A DNA stretch of 64,000 nucleotides from Loigolactobacillus coryniformis subsp. coryniformis KCTC 3167 = DSM 20001 (GTDB lineage: Bacteria > Bacillota > Bacilli > Lactobacillales > Lactobacillaceae), in contig NZ_CP017713.1 in the NCBI RefSeq assembly GCF_002706425.1, positions 2,790,001 to 2,854,000 on the forward strand, in the 5' to 3' direction. The translations under genes were made by a program, and so were the position numbers. How positions within the stretch are numbered: position 1 is the first letter of the stretch; every line of letters begins with the position of its first letter. The notes under the pieces are model-generated. The model saw nothing but the letters and a program-made list of their open reading frames with translations. It had not been told where the DNA came from and searched no databases. This document shows positions 14,420 to 22,716 of the stretch, in pieces.

Positions 14420-15694
14420 TTAAACCATCATCGTGTACAGCATCTGATTGTCCTTTAAATTAATGTACCGTGGATCAAACTGTGACAAGCGTTCCAGTAA
14501 ACCTGGTAATGTAGCCCGATCTCCTAAACGTACGCCAATCAAAACTGGTCCTTCACCGCGATTAACTTTTTTAGTGTACTCAAATTTCGTGATATCATCG
14601 TCGGGGCTAAGAATTTCATTGACCACTTCGCGTAAAGCGCCAGGCCGTTGCGGAAAATTGACGATGAAGTAGTGTTGGTACCCTTCAAAAATCAATGAAC
14701 GCTCTTCGATTTCTTGCATCCGATTAATGTCGTTATTACCACCACTGACGACGCAGACGACTGTTTTACCAGCAATTTGCTCTTGTTGTGCCGCTAAAGC
14801 CGCTACACTTAAAGCGCCGGCTGGTTCCGCGACGATGGCTTCCTTGCTGTACAAGTCTAAAATAGCGCTACATACTTGGCCTTCTGGTACGGCGATCACG
14901 TCATCAACGTATTCTTTCACATTGGCGTAAGTTAGCGCGCCAACTTTTTTCACCGCCGCGCCATCGACAAATTTATCCATTTCGCGCAACGCGATCGGCC
15001 CACCAGTTGCCAAAGCTGCTTTCATTGAGGCCGCACCAGCTGGCTCGACACCAACAACTTTAGTTGCGGGGTTGGTGCCTTTAACGTAAGCGGCCACACC
15101 ACTGATCAGGCCACCACCACCAATTGCCGCAAACATATAGTCAACGTTGATTCCAGCTTTAGCCGCGTCAGCCAGCGTTTCTACCGCCAACGTCCCTTGA
15201 CCAGCCATCGTCCGTTTATCATTAAATGGGGCAATAAACGTTTGCTCATTTTCTTTGCAAAAAGCTTCCGCAGCCGCTGCGGCCGCATCAAAAGTGTCAC
15301 CAACTAATTTGATCGTCACATCATCGCCGCCAAAAAAGCTGACTTGACTGACCTTTTGCTTGGGTGTCGTCACCGGCATAAAAATTGTTGCTGGTACTTG
15401 CATTTGATGACAGGTCCACGCCACGCCTTGGGCATGGTTACCGGCACTAGCACAGACCACGCCACGTTGGCGTTGTTCGGCCGGTGTATCGGCGATTGCA
15501 TAGTAAGCGCCGCGAATTTTAAATGAGCGGACACTCTGCAAATCTTCCCGTTTTAAGTAAACTTGACAGTGATATTTTTGTGATAAATAAACATCGTATT
15601 GTAGCGGCGTGTGGCGAATAATCGGCCGCAACACCTCATAAGCTTTGTCGACGTCGGTTTTAGTAAGTAATGCGGATTGTTGCATGACGACCAT
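14420..15694 (-). CDS. ilvA: Threonine dehydratase (threonine ammonia-lyase), biosynthetic type
   Basis: PLP enzyme making 2-oxobutanoate and ammonia from threonine, the first step to isoleucine. The Schiff-base lysine is in VRSFKIRGAYYA (about residue 59), the glycine-rich phosphate loop is GGGGLISG, and VVCVVSGGNND is the second PLP-binding stretch. A C-terminal ACT-like regulatory domain follows, with YQHYFIVNFPQRPGALREV near residue 340, so feedback by isoleucine is expected. It is 424 residues long, the usual length for the single-ACT form. AAGGGATG precedes ATG 15694. It lies downstream of ilvC behind a terminator, so read-through or a separate promoter drives it. Confidence 0.93.
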   Translation of the reverse strand: MVVMQQSALLTKTDVDKAYEVLRPIIRHTPLQYDVYLSQKYHCQVYLKREDLQSVRSFKIRGAYYAIADTPAEQRQRGVVCASAGNHAQGVAWTCHQMQVPATIFMPVTTPKQKVSQVSFFGGDDVTIKLVGDTFDAAAAAAEAFCKENEQTFIAPFNDKRTMAGQGTLAVETLADAAKAGINVDYMFAAIGGGGLISGVAAYVKGTNPATKVVGVEPAGAASMKAALATGGPIALREMDKFVDGAAVKKVGALTYANVKEYVDDVIAVPEGQVCSAILDLYSKEAIVAEPAGALSVAALAAQQEQIAGKTVVCVVSGGNNDINRMQEIEERSLIFEGYQHYFIVNFPQRPGALREVVNEILSPDDDITKFEYTKKVNRGEGPVLIGVRLGDRATLPGLLERLSQFDPRYINLKDNQMLYTMMV

Positions 15695-15936: not shown

Positions 15937-17031
<1,095 letters not shown>

Positions 17032-17142: not shown

Positions 17143-17258
17143 AACGTGTTCCAAAGGGCAACTTCTTCCATATAGCTACGCTTGCCGAACACTCCACTAC
17201 GTGTAGCTTATCGTCAAGCTAGGCTATATTCCAGAAGTTAAGCGCCCTTTGTCACACT
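17143..17258 (+). repeat. Long-hairpin intergenic repeat, copy A
   Basis: A 116-base imperfect palindrome between ilvC and ilvN. Paired arms are AAAGGGC/GCCCTTT (17153-17159 with 17244-17250), AACTTCT/AGAAGTT (17160-17166 with 17233-17239) and ATATAGC/GCTATAT (17170-17176 with 17223-17229). Copy B at 20294-20410 is the same length and orientation, with point differences. Copy C at 29778-29850 is a shorter inverted relative. Confidence 0.8.
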
Positions 17259-17741
17259 CTATCCTTCTGCTCTGGTAAAGCCTGCAACCCCGGTGCGTAC
17301 GACTTGGGTAACGCCGTACGGTTGGACTACGCGGAGTAGTGCGTTGACTTTCTCGCGCGATCCGGTGATTTGGATCATTAGTGAATCTAGTGCGACATCG
17401 ACGACATCGGCACGAAATGGTTGGACCATCGCGAACAACTCCGCCCGTTTGTTCGTTGCGGCGTTGACGCGGATCAGCGCCAACTCGCGCTCGATGTGTG
17501 GTTGTTCCGTAATATCGTGGATCTCCAACACATCGATCTGCTTATTTAACTGGGCAACTAATTGCTTAGCCGCCGCGGTGTCATCTAAATAGATGACTGC
17601 AGTCACCCGCGAAGCACTTTTATCGCCAACTGGACTAATTGAAATACTGTCAATATTGACTTGACGCCGAGTCAGCGTCCCAGTAAAGCGATTCAGCACT
17701 CCCGGGTTATTACTCAAGAGACAAGTAAGTACCCGTCGCAT
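17259..17741 (-). CDS. ilvN: Acetolactate synthase small (regulatory) subunit
   Basis: A 160-residue regulatory subunit with an N-terminal ACT domain (RRVLTCLLSNNPGVLNRFTG) and a C-terminal half (ERELALIRVNA). It binds valine or other branched-chain end products and activates and inhibits IlvB. Its ATG follows the ilvB stop codon directly (TAG at 17742-17744), with GGAGAGTGATTAG as ribosome site, so the two are translationally coupled. The gene ends at copy A of the hairpin repeat. Confidence 0.95.
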   Translation of the reverse strand: MRRVLTCLLSNNPGVLNRFTGTLTRRQVNIDSISISPVGDKSASRVTAVIYLDDTAAAKQLVAQLNKQIDVLEIHDITEQPHIERELALIRVNAATNKRAELFAMVQPFRADVVDVALDSLMIQITGSREKVNALLRVVQPYGVTQVVRTGVAGFTRAEG

Positions 17742-19442
17742 CTAATCACTCTCCATCATTTCATTATTAGCGCTGCCTGGCGCGATCATCGGCATTACGG
17801 GTTCCAAAGCTGGAATCGCAACTTCGATCAGTGCGGCATGTGGTGCTGCAAATGCTTTGGCCAAATCGGCCGCCACTGTTTGTGGATCAGTGAGATGATG
17901 TGCTGCCAAACCATACGCTTCAGCCAACTTCATGAAGTTAGGCTGATGTTCAAACATCGTTTGTGAACGCCGCTGATCATAGAATAGATCCTGCCACTGT
18001 CGGACCATACCTAAAGTGTGGTTATTTAATAGTACAATTTTGATATCCAAGTCATAAGTTGCGATAACTTCTAGCTCTTCACTAGTCATTTGGATACCGC
18101 CATCACCGATAAATAACACCACTGGTTTATCCGGCGCAGCTAGTTTGGCGCCGATCGCTGCAGGTAAGCCAAAGCCCATCGTGCCTAGGCCGCCGCTGGT
18201 GATCAATTGGTGCTGATGTTTAAACGGATAATACTGTGCTGCCCACATTTGGTTCTGGCCGACATCGGTAACCACATACGCATCGCCATGCGTTAGCTCT
18301 CCCACTAACTCAACAACTTGTTGTGGCTTGATCTCGGTAGCACTCTTTTGATAATGCATTGGATGTTGGCTCTGCCATTCCTGCAACTGTTGGTGCCAAG
18401 CGCTGACTTCTGGTCGTGTTGCTGAACTACGCAGCATCAACTTCAAAACAGCTTTGGCATCGCCCACTAGTTGGTAAGTGGTGGCGATCACTTTATCCAT
18501 TTCTGCAGCATCAATATCGATATGCGCGATCGTTGCGTGTGGTGCAAATCGCTGTGGCGCCGTGGCTAAACGATCATCAAACCGCGAGCCGACATTGATC
18601 AGCAGGTCACACTCGGAAAGTGCCATATTAGCTGCATAAGTACCGTGCATACCGCCCATACCCAAGAACATTGGATCGTTGGTTGGCATAACTCCAAGTC
18701 CAAGCAGTGTAGCCACGACTGGCACTTGGTAACGCTGCGCGAAACGTTGCACTTCCGTTTGCGCTGCGGCGGCGTGAACGCCGTTGCCGACTAATAATAC
18801 TGGTTTGTGCGCCTGGCTTAAAGCCTGCATTAGCTGTGCGACCCGGTGCTTATCAACGGTTGGTGCTGGTTGATATTGCGGTAAATTAACTTGCTCTGGA
18901 AACGGTGCGTTCGTCGTTTGATTGGCGATATTCTTAGGTAGATCGATCAACACTGGTCCTTTGCGACCAGTTGAAGCAACGTAGAACGCTTCATTAATAA
19001 TTCGCGGTAAATCACGCACATCGTGGACCTGATAATTATTTTTGGTGATCGAAGCCGTCATACTGAGAATATCCGCTTCTTGGAATGCATCACTGCCAAT
19101 GGCTTGAGTACCGACTTGGCCGGTAAAAACAACCAAAGGTATTGAATCCATCATCGCATCCGCAATTCCGGTGATCGCATTGGTTGCACCTGGACCGCTA
19201 GTAACAAAAACGACACCAGGTTTGCCGGTTGCTTTAGCATAACCTTCGGCAGCGTGAGCAGCAGCCTGCTCATGCCGGACAAGAATATGACGGAACTTTT
19301 GCCGATAAACGGCATCGTACAATGGGAGGACTGCGCCACCCGGATAGCCGAAAATCATTTCGACATTTTGTGCAGTTAATGTATCAAGCAATAATTCAGC
19401 GCCATTACGTACTGGCATGGGCTGTTCTTCTGGTGCTTGCAT
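17742..19442 (-). CDS. ilvB: Acetolactate synthase large (catalytic) subunit
   Basis: Thiamine-diphosphate and FAD enzyme joining two pyruvates, or pyruvate with 2-oxobutanoate. It is 566 residues long. YPGGAVLPLYDA and the catalytic glutamate in RHEQAAAHAAEGYA lie in the N-terminal domain; the ThDP motif runs from GDGGIQM to LLNNH in the C-terminal domain. The presence of ilvN and this motif set mark it as the anabolic enzyme, not the catabolic AlsS. GGAGGTGAGCAG precedes the ATG. A T-box leader of about 300 bases (19571-19876) controls the operon. Confidence 0.95.
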   Translation of the reverse strand: MQAPEEQPMPVRNGAELLLDTLTAQNVEMIFGYPGGAVLPLYDAVYRQKFRHILVRHEQAAAHAAEGYAKATGKPGVVFVTSGPGATNAITGIADAMMDSIPLVVFTGQVGTQAIGSDAFQEADILSMTASITKNNYQVHDVRDLPRIINEAFYVASTGRKGPVLIDLPKNIANQTTNAPFPEQVNLPQYQPAPTVDKHRVAQLMQALSQAHKPVLLVGNGVHAAAAQTEVQRFAQRYQVPVVATLLGLGVMPTNDPMFLGMGGMHGTYAANMALSECDLLINVGSRFDDRLATAPQRFAPHATIAHIDIDAAEMDKVIATTYQLVGDAKAVLKLMLRSSATRPEVSAWHQQLQEWQSQHPMHYQKSATEIKPQQVVELVGELTHGDAYVVTDVGQNQMWAAQYYPFKHQHQLITSGGLGTMGFGLPAAIGAKLAAPDKPVVLFIGDGGIQMTSEELEVIATYDLDIKIVLLNNHTLGMVRQWQDLFYDQRRSQTMFEHQPNFMKLAEAYGLAAHHLTDPQTVAADLAKAFAAPHAALIEVAIPALEPVMPMIAPGSANNEMMESD

Positions 19443-19570
19443 CTGCTCACCTCCGTTTTGATTAAAATACGATTAGATTTTATGTAAGTTACTTTACTCT
19501 TTTTATTAATAATGTCAACTGCTTTTTGAAATTTTTTTGAAACTGTTTTTAGCTAGCGGTTTAGGGTATA

Positions 19571-19876
19571 AAAAAACGTCCTTCGAGATAAAATTACTTA
19601 TCTTGAAGGACGTTATATTAACGTGGTACCACCTTTATTTGTAGCGACATTACTGCAACTACCTCTTCACGTGCGGGCAAAAATTGCCGATACGCTAGCC
19701 AGATAATGGTGGCAGCCAGTGAATTCTACTAAAAATTTCGATTCATTGCTCAGAGCCGATTTTCTTGATCATAGTTGGTACCGCCTCTCACCAAACGCGG
19801 TTCGCTTACCCAAGCCATGAAAAATACTTTTGCTCGTCAACACATTATTAGTTTAAATGTAACTCGATTTCTATGT
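19571..19876 (-). promoter_or_regulatory. T-box leader of ilvBN, Ile-type specifier
   Basis: tRNA-sensing leader on the minus strand. The conserved T-box AAAGGTGGTACCACG (complement of 19622-19636) lies directly before a terminator (19575-19614). Stem I begins with GAGC and AGTA near the 5' end and closes with GCTC. The loop opposite AGTA reads GAA-A-ATC-G, so the specifier triplet appears to be ATC, isoleucine. Uncharged tRNA-Ile would stabilise the antiterminator and let transcription enter ilvB. Confidence 0.9.
19575..19614 (-). terminator. T-box attenuator terminator (ilvBN)
   Basis: Arms AACGTCCTTC and GAAGGACGTT around an AT-rich loop, followed on the minus strand by seven T residues. 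It competes with the T-box antiterminator. Confidence 0.85.
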
Positions 19877-19881
19877 TGCTC

Positions 19882-19911
19882 ATAATACACGTGATCTTAG
19901 TTCATTGTCAA
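19882..19911 (-). promoter_or_regulatory. Promoter of the ilvBN T-box transcript
   Basis: Consensus -35 TTGACA (complement 19906-19911), 18-base spacer, -10 TATTAT (complement 19882-19887). Confidence 0.65.
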
Positions 19912-19918
19912 CACTTTT

Positions 19919-20131
19919 TTAGAAATAACGATCAAAATCTTTTTCAAAGCCACAAACGCTGCAATATTTGGCGTTAGGCGTTTGTGCACCGCAATTGACG
20001 CAGAAGCTGGTGCTAAACACGTTATGCCCTTGTTCTTCAAAGAGATGCTGTCCGCAGCAAGTACAGAAGTTACCGCTGGGGACGGTGTGATTACAGTTAG
20101 CGCAGACGATCATTTCATAAGTTGTTTCCAT
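19919..20131 (-). CDS. Small double zinc-ribbon protein
   Basis: A 70-residue protein with eight cysteines in two C-x2-C pairs of pairs: CANC and CTCC in the first half, CVNC and CSVC in the second. This is a tandem zinc-ribbon layout, with an aromatic acidic tail ending RYF. The function is unknown; such proteins can bind nucleic acid or act as adaptors. AAAGGGGAATTCC precedes the ATG. It is the only gene downstream of the Val-type T-box at 20412-20801, and its 3' end adjoins the promoter of the ilvBN leader. Confidence 0.65.
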   Translation of the reverse strand: METTYEMIVCANCNHTVPSGNFCTCCGQHLFEEQGHNVFSTSFCVNCGAQTPNAKYCSVCGFEKDFDRYF

Positions 20132-20293
20132 AATGGAATTCCCCTTTTCTATTGATAGTTACGGTTAATTTATTTTCTTCTATGTTACGGACAAATGACT
20201 CACATCACACTTCATGCCGCGAGTAGCTTTAGCGCAAATTCAGATACTGCCTTCAAGATATAGTTGTCAAAGAACAATCTAATCTAAAGGGAG

Positions 20294-20410
20294 AACGTGC
20301 TTCAAAAGGCAACTTCTTCCGTATAACTACGCTTAGCGAACGAGCCACTGCGTGTCTCTTATCACTAAGCTAGGTTATACTCCAGAAGCTGAGCGCCTTT
20401 TGTCGCACTC
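20294..20410 (+). repeat. Long-hairpin intergenic repeat, copy B
   Basis: A 117-base imperfect palindrome closely matching copy A (17143-17258) in the same orientation; arms AAAAGGC/GCCTTTT and AACTTCT/AGAAGCT. It lies between the terminator of the orphan T-box and the zinc-ribbon gene. Direct copies A and B bracket a 3-kb segment with ilvN, ilvB, their T-box and the zinc-ribbon gene. Confidence 0.8.
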
Positions 20411-20411
20411 C

Positions 20412-20801
20412 ACAAAAAAAGCGCCCAAAGTGATCTATGAGATTAGATCACTAAGGACGCTTATCGCGCGTTACCACCTTTAATTTACATCTACGTCACC
20501 GCAAATGCCTCTGCCGCGCACAAACTTCTAGAAATCAGAATACTACGTCTGCTTGGAGCCTTCAGATAGATCACAAACGTAGAAACGAGCTAGCTCATCC
20601 CTTCTAGAGTTGATGCGTTGGTGCGATAATGGGCACTCCCAATCCCGCCTACTTTGTTCAGCAGATAGCTCAAAGGTTACTTTCATCAATAACAGTACTG
20701 CCTCTCTCAGCTCACAAGGCTCTCTGTTCAGGTACTGCAATCGACTACTCTTCCTCGTCGAAGCTTTTAGATTAGATAATAATTAAATTTTATTTCGATT
20801 G
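20412..20801 (-). promoter_or_regulatory. Second T-box leader, Val-type specifier, without an obvious target gene
   Basis: Complete T-box leader on the minus strand. T-box AAAGGTGGTAACGCG (complement of about 20467-20481) precedes a terminator at 20420-20462. Stem I carries GAGG and AGTA on the 5' side, an AGAGAG stretch, and GAA-A-GTA-A followed by CCTT on the 3' side, so the specifier reads GTA, valine. The promoter (20808-20836) is near consensus. Read-through would enter hairpin repeat B and then the zinc-ribbon gene. It points away from ilvD and overlaps no coding gene. Confidence 0.85.
20420..20462 (-). terminator. T-box attenuator terminator (orphan leader)
   Basis: Long hairpin, outer arms AAGCGTCC/GGGCGCTT with inner AGTGATCTA/TAGATCACT, followed on the minus strand by seven T residues. 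Confidence 0.85.
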
Positions 20802-20807
20802 AGGCTC

Positions 20808-20836
20808 ATTTTACACGGCTAAAGATACTATGTCAA
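20808..20836 (-). promoter_or_regulatory. Promoter of the orphan T-box leader
   Basis: TTGACA (complement 20831-20836), 17-base spacer, TAAAAT (complement 20808-20813). Back-to-back with the ilvD promoter. Confidence 0.7.
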
Positions 20837-20961: not shown

Positions 20962-22716
20962 ATGAGTGACACCTTAAATTTTTCGATCTCTGGTAAAGAT
21001 ATGCAGAAGCGCAGTGACGAAATTAAGGTTGGCGATGATCGAGCACCGGGACGTAGTTTGTTATATGCCACTGGCAAAGTCAAAAACACCGATGATATGA
21101 AAAAACCGTTTATCGCCATCTGTAATTCCTATATTGAAATTGTCCCTGGCCACGTTCATTTACGTGAACTTGCCGATATCGCAAAGGAAGCGATCCGCGA
21201 AGCTGGCGGGATTCCATTTGAATTTAATACGATCGGCGTTGATGATGGGATCGCCATGGGCCATATTGGGATGCGTTACTCATTACCAAGTCGGGAAATT
21301 ATCGCTGATGCGGCCGAGACCGTGGTCAACGCCCACTGGTTTGACGGTGTCCTCTACATGCCTAATTGTGACAAGATCTCCCCAGGGATGATGATGGCAG
21401 CGGCGCGGACCAACGTGCCTTCTGTGTTTGTTTCCGGTGGCCCGATGAAAGCCGGCTTAGATCCTAATGGTAAAGCCGTGACGCTATCCAACATGTTTGA
21501 GGCAGTCGGCGCCTTCAAGTCTGGCAAAATGACCAAGGAAGATTTCCTTCAATTAGAACAAAATGCTTGTCCCAGCTGCGGTTCCTGTGCCGGCATGTTC
21601 ACCGCCAACTCAATGAACTGTTTGATGGAAATGACTGGCTTAGCCTTACCATACAACGGTACTGCCCTAGCAGTTTCTGAAGAACGCCGTGATTTAGTTC
21701 GCAAAGCTGCCAAACAATTGATGACCGTGGTCAAAAATAATATCCGGCCACGTGATCTTTTGACTAAAGAAGCTTTTGATGATTGTATCGCACTTGACAT
21801 GGCGATGGGAGGTTCAACTAATACCGTATTACACGTGTTAGCCATCGCTCACGAAGCCGGCGTCGATTACAGTGAACGTGATATCAACGCAATTGCTGCG
21901 AAAACCCCATTCTTAGCTAAAATTGCGCCATCCTCTTCGTGGACAATGCAGGATGTCCACGAGGCTGGCGGTATGCCAGCCATCATTAATGAACTGATCG
22001 AAAAAGGTGGCATCATTCATCCCGATCGACCAACGATCACCGGCAAAACGTTACGCGAAAACGTTGCGGGTGCTAAGAGTTTAAATCACGAGGTCATTCG
22101 GCCGTTAGATAATCCATATTCTAGCGAAGGCGGCTTATCCGTTCTTTACGGTAATATCGCTCCTGATGGTTCCGTCCTTAAAGTTGGCGGTGTCGATCCT
22201 GATATCCGCGTCTTCACTGGTAAAGCCGTCTGCTTCGACTCCCATGATGATGCTGTCACCGGGATCGATGATGGCACTGTCAAAAAAGGCGATGTGGTCG
22301 TTATCCGTTATGAAGGTCCCAAAGGCGGCCCCGGTATGCCAGAAATGTTGAATCCAACTTCGGACTTAGTTGGACGTGGCTTAGGCCGTGATGTTGGTTT
22401 GATCACTGATGGGCGCTTTTCCGGTGCCACTCACGGGATCGCTGTCGGTCACATTTCACCAGAAGCTGCCGCTGGCGGTCCGATCGCATTGATCAAAGAT
22501 GGTGATGAAATCACTATCGACATGATCAATCGGACATTGAACGTTAAAGTCTCTGACGCCGAATTTGCGGAACGGCGCAAGCATTTAAAGCCGTTCCAAC
22601 CAAAAGTACGCCAAGGTTACTTAGCACGTTATACCTACTTAGTCACTTCCGCTAATACCGGCGGCATCATGAAAAGTGCCGACGAATTATTTGGCCCCGC
22701 AACTGAGCAAGAATGA
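20962..22716 (+). CDS. ilvD: Dihydroxy-acid dehydratase
   Basis: Iron-sulfur enzyme dehydrating dihydroxyisovalerate and dihydroxymethylvalerate to the 2-keto acids used by IlvE. It is 584 residues long, within the family range. Cluster and substrate blocks are [43 protein letters not shown] and [24 protein letters not shown] precedes the ATG. Its transcript ends at a terminator before a DUF59 gene whose family assists Fe-S cluster assembly. It is divergent from the orphan T-box. Confidence 0.96.

Follow-up and report, generated by a model that had tools for sequence, protein, structure and literature searches.

The window, the whole stretch of 64,000 nucleotides analysed here from Loigolactobacillus coryniformis subsp. 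coryniformis KCTC 3167 = DSM 20001 (contig NZ_CP017713.1), carries on its minus strand, in this order, a Val T-box riboswitch, a gene for a small zinc-ribbon protein (termed ZR here), an Ile T-box and the genes ilvB-ilvN-ilvC-ilvA (Table 1). The initial annotation had located a minus-strand T-box leader with promoter, GTA specifier, T-box sequence and terminator, followed by a 70-residue double zinc-ribbon open reading frame. All the leader parts were found at the places given, and the reading frame is real as judged by ORF and Pfam analysis. It had also stated that no branched-chain gene stands behind the T-box and that the zinc-ribbon gene is the only gene downstream; both statements are refuted, as the Ile T-box comes next and ilvB, ilvN, ilvC and ilvA, assigned by Pfam, follow on the same strand.

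Table 1. Features of the ZR-ilv locus, in window coordinates
Feature	Position	Strand	Basis or remark
ilvD, dihydroxyacid dehydratase, divergent upstream	20962..22716	+	ILVD_EDD_N + ILV_EDD_C
Promoter P1 of the Val T-box unit, TTGACA-17-TAAAAT	20808..20836	-	promoter scan 11/12
Direct repeat TTTAATTATTATCTAATC, between P1 and T-box, candidate operator	20770..20787	-	
Val T-box riboswitch (Stem I, Stem III, antiterminator)	20450..20770	-	RF00230 and covariation, 8 genomes
Specifier codon GTA (Val)	20678..20680	-	aligned to RF00230 specifier position
T-box sequence AAAGGTGGTAACGCG, TGGT for tRNA acceptor end	20467..20481	-	
Intrinsic terminator competing with antiterminator	20414..20462 (about)	-	16-pair stem, then T run
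Dispersed imperfect palindromic repeat, ~108 bp	20290..20405	-	
boxA-like element TTCTTTGACAACT	20262..20274	-	
ZR, 70-aa double zinc-ribbon protein, four CxxC, first cistron	19919..20131	-	
Promoter P2, just past ZR stop, TTGACA-18-TATTAT	19882..19911	-	promoter scan 11/12
Ile T-box riboswitch	19603..19849	-	RF00230 114.2 bits, above cut-off
Specifier ATC of Ile T-box	19760-19758	-	
Promoter P3, downstream of both T-boxes, before ilvB, TTGACA-16-TAAAGT	19491..19518	-	promoter scan 10/12
Direct repeat TCTAATCGTATTTTAATC, downstream of P3, candidate operator	19460..19477	-	
ilvB, acetohydroxyacid synthase large subunit	17742..19442	-	Pfam TPP_enzyme N/M/C
ilvN, acetohydroxyacid synthase small subunit	17259..17741	-	ALS_ss_C + ACT
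ilvC, ketol-acid reductoisomerase	15937..16947	-	KARI_N + KARI_C
ilvA, threonine dehydratase	14420..15694	-	PALP + Thr_dehydrat_C

A search of 862 bases with the covariance model RF00230 revealed a minus-strand match at 20770-20450 with an E value of 1.4e-19, covering model positions 1-219 of 219. The expectation of the initial annotation that a covariance model would recognize a Val T-box thus held for the length of the match, its E value and the Val specifier, but not for the score of 87.8 bits, which lies below the RF00230 gathering score of 93; for this reason a default RF00230 scan finds the Ile T-box alone. The shortfall arises without any structural part missing, and a long insert separates Stem III from the antiterminator. 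The GTA specifier is invariant across 8 aligned genomes, and three tRNA-Val genes in the same genome carry the matching anticodon UAC. The T-box sequence and the competing antiterminator and terminator are also conserved in the 8-genome alignment. The Rfam-derived structure is paired in 96.6% of the cells of these genomes and shows 23 two-sided changes; none of 500 shuffles reached either value, and sliding the partners as a control lowered the pairing to 37-51%. The terminator stem is paired in 95.2% of the cells. The T-box is genuine.

P1, P2 and P3 are the top three promoter-like sites on the minus strand. The -35 element of P1 is conserved in the Loigolactobacillus alignment and that of P3 within the genus, and P2-like promoters are also found in relatives. 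A further candidate promoter ahead of ZR, at TTTGACAA, was rejected as it has no acceptable -10 element.

Comparison of eight Loigolactobacillus genomes, with relatives including Loigolactobacillus jiayinensis, binensis and zhaoyuanensis, revealed ilvB in seven, and all seven carry the Val T-box and ZR. The order Val T-box, ZR, Ile T-box, ilvB is intact in six of them; in the seventh (G007) it is split by a contig break behind ZR, with the Ile T-box and ilvB at the start of another contig. The eighth genome (G001) is without this ilvB, ilvC and ZR. The leader and ZR are also conserved together in a second genus. The distance from the terminator to ZR is 281 bases in the window, 130-190 bases in other genomes and about 70 in one genome of the genus g3. 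The gap in the window is largely one copy of the palindromic repeat, which has 17 matches in the source genome, including one in the interval from ilvN to ilvC (17143-17253, minus strand), and is matched in 6 of the 7 other genus genomes (7/8 with the source genome). At the leader locus it is missing or different in several relatives, and therefore the hairpin is not part of the regulatory design. The long hairpin repeat reported earlier is indeed present ahead of ZR, but as a dispersed element and not as a conserved part of the leader; its candidacy as a regulatory part was rejected.

The ZR protein of the window scored 22.8 bits against Pfam DZR (PF12773), under the curated cut-off of 27.3, and matched Zn_Ribbon_1 (PF13240) likewise below the curated cut-off. 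It shares the spacing of its CxxC pairs with the members of both families, differing from them in these sub-threshold scores. Among the orthologues, 13 of 14 match each family at E<0.001, the best reaching an E value of 3e-7 against PF12773. The name DZR refers to a fold and says nothing of function, and none of the NCBIfam families fits ZR. In 14 ZR sequences 16 alignment columns are invariant, eight of which are the cysteines. The window gene and that of G003 differ at 20 nucleotides and at no amino acid, and over the three closest genomes dN is 0 to 0.006 against a dS of about 0.9-1.1. These values indicate that strong purifying selection acts on ZR, and the dN/dS comparison rules out a non-coding ZR. 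The AlphaFold model is poor, with a mean pLDDT of 55.5, and at that quality no helix is predicted. A search of the ZR profile against PDB sequences yielded ribosomal zinc-ribbon proteins among others, and no solved relative that indicates a function.

A scan of 397 Lactobacillaceae genomes found full-length ZR orthologues only in Loigolactobacillus, g3 (2 genomes) and g48 (8 genomes), that is in 17 genomes. ZR occurs in 17 of the 48 genomes with ilvC and in 0 of the 349 others (Fisher 1.4e-17); conversely, ilvC is present in all 17 ZR genomes versus 31 of the remaining 380. In 16 of the 17 genomes ZR immediately precedes ilvB, and in the remaining one it ends a contig. The genus g3 has one Val-type T-box, followed by ZR and by ilvB with a P3-like promoter. 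In g48 neither ZR nor ilvB was found to have a T-box motif ahead of it, and an attenuator, consisting of an Ile/Val/Leu-rich leader peptide and terminators, lies between the two genes. ZR thus stays where it is in the three genera although the sensor differs among them. Since ZR of g48 has no T-box, its role does not require T-box control. Beyond the family, 395 order-level and 398 class-level genomes yielded just weak partial zinc-ribbon matches. Carriage of ZR by mobile elements was considered and rejected, the sole plasmid match being a partial hit in Cupriavidus.

The divergence of ZR correlates with that of IlvB (Spearman 0.55, reached by 0 of 5000 permutations), and in G005 both ZR and IlvB are nearest to g3. 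The correlation and the case of G005 suggest that the ZR-ilvB block moved or was inherited together. Five genomes whose IlvB falls inside the ZR-bearing cluster are without ZR and retain the ilv operon; ZR is therefore dispensable and can be lost. A single origin of ZR with IlvB was rejected, as the trees need at least 4 changes on a quick IlvB tree, and the history of ZR would be either a gain plus losses or a transfer.

Tandem T-boxes are a common arrangement ahead of ilv operons in Bacillota (PMC12452182). As in those operons, ilvB is preceded here by two complete T-boxes with a terminator apiece; the present locus differs from them in the conserved protein gene and second promoter between the two and in the specificities, Val and then Ile. 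The T-box is thus an ordinary one in a known kind of arrangement, and the new conserved element is the zinc-ribbon gene between the T-boxes. Most probably the Val T-box and ZR belong to a tandem T-box leader of ilvBNCA, of which they are the upstream half, with ZR as a true target and the first cistron. This reading is based on the sequences of both T-boxes, the gene order, the conservation of the leader with ZR and the purifying selection on ZR; the last two lend support to the earlier suggestion that the zinc-ribbon gene is a T-box target.

We infer from this arrangement that transcription reads through in two stages. On valine shortage, uncharged tRNA-Val (UAC) would read GTA in Stem I and stabilise the antiterminator, and RNA polymerase would then go past the terminator (20462-20414) and transcribe ZR. 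The transcript from P1 would continue from ZR into the Ile T-box, because no terminator is evident after ZR, and uncharged tRNA-Ile would be needed to relieve the Ile T-box before ilvBNCA is reached. P2 and P3 may serve as extra entry points, P2 for the Ile T-box unit and P3 for ilvB. P3 is also a counterpoint to the proposal, as it would permit expression of ilvB independent of both T-boxes.

The nearest precedent for a gene such as ZR is anti-TRAP. In B. subtilis, the T-box-controlled gene rtpA encodes a small zinc protein with a regulatory effect on trp expression (PMC11255114, PMC2494555), which contradicts the earlier generalization that the known T-box targets are always genes for aminoacyl-tRNA synthetases or for the synthesis or transport of amino acids. 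Anti-TRAP is raised by a Trp T-box and frees the trp operon from TRAP; it has 53 residues, a zinc-ribbon motif and a C-terminal trimer-forming helix, and answers tRNA-Trp (PMC11255114). Similar to the anti-TRAP (rtpA/yczA) operon, the locus has a small zinc protein behind an amino-acid T-box, linked to the control of the same pathway. Unlike anti-TRAP, ZR has 70 residues and four CxxC with no helix in its low-confidence model, is predicted to answer tRNA-Val and sits inside the ilv operon. A profile search of PDB sequences, up to E 1, found no sequence match between ZR and anti-TRAP, which is thus the best precedent but not a sequence relative. Of the possible roles for ZR the likeliest, at slightly less than even odds, is that of a small trans-acting regulator made at valine shortage, which would adjust ilv expression or acetohydroxyacid synthase activity, in an anti-TRAP-like arrangement that would have been reached independently. 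A further step, somewhat more tentative, is that ZR might be the first member of a new family of zinc-ribbon proteins that are under T-box control and regulate branched-chain amino acid synthesis, independent of anti-TRAP. Placed between the two amino-acid sensors of a single operon, it would act in a scheme in which valine shortage alone would call for the regulator and shortage of both valine and isoleucine for the enzymes.

Other readings of the locus were weighed against these proposals. ZR could assist or activate acetohydroxyacid synthase as an additional subunit, binding IlvB and being co-expressed with it, and not be a regulator of expression. ZR directly precedes ilvB, and no ALS_ss_C small subunit was detected in the g3 and g48 genomes, both consistent with a subunit; however, Loigolactobacillus has ZR in addition to a normal ilvN, and six other genera tested that are without ALS_ss_C are also without ZR, which makes this reading rather unlikely. 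It is still less probable that the two T-boxes simply control ilvBNCA in series and that ZR is a passenger ORF irrelevant to branched-chain metabolism. Although the frequency of tandem T-boxes before ilvB in Bacillota noted above and the 31 of 48 Lactobacillaceae ilvC genomes without ZR would fit a passenger, the strong purifying selection on ZR and its constant linkage to ilvB in three genera, even where an attenuator replaces the T-boxes, speak against it. The suggestion of the initial annotation that the leader is an orphan, having lost its gene and ending before nothing of consequence, could draw on a gap before ZR that seems empty at first sight but can practically be dismissed, since that gap is mostly a repeat copy and is shorter in other genomes, ilvBNCA lies on the same strand behind the leader, the Val T-box structure is maintained in 8 genomes, and the operon is headed by two tandem T-boxes, of which the Val T-box comes first.

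A limited literature search returned no account of a zinc-ribbon gene with ilvB or between tandem T-boxes. The ilv operon here opens with the gene of a conserved, undescribed small protein, and this gene stands under a valine sensor distinct from the isoleucine sensor of the enzymes. Should ZR prove to be a regulator, the anti-TRAP principle, in which a tRNA-sensing RNA makes a pathway-tuning zinc protein, would have a second and unrelated example. ZR would then also be a concrete candidate for the balancing of valine and isoleucine synthesis in these lactic acid bacteria, some of which have no acetohydroxyacid synthase small subunit that can be recognised. As small genes of food bacteria, ZR and its neighbours lend themselves to testing.

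Several other features of the ilv loci were observed. The direct repeats past P1 and P3 both fit TYTAATYN4TYTAATY, with an 11-bp period. This pattern has 2 sites in the window versus 0.02 expected, and 11 genome-wide versus 5 for a reversed-pattern control. The repeat is present in close relatives, with a variant form in G006, and might be the operator of a DNA-binding branched-chain regulator. TYTAATYN4TYTAATY repeats are also common to ilv loci of other genera. Ile/Val/Leu-rich leader peptides with terminators were seen upstream of ilvB in L091-L098, L139, L147, L149 and L150, which suggests that ilv operons are under ribosome-mediated attenuation in several genera of the Lactobacillaceae. 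All 16 ilvC genomes tested outside the genus have no recognisable ALS_ss_C, and known control genomes nearly all have one. The boxA-like element is not seen in the g3 leaders and is kept in 7/7 Loigolactobacillus ilv leaders amid divergent sequence. It matches the rRNA spacer boxA of the same genome at 15 of 21 positions (reached by 1 of 1000 shuffles) and the 16S leader boxA at 12 of 21 (reached by 593 of 1000), and lies in a non-ribosomal leader, upstream of ZR.
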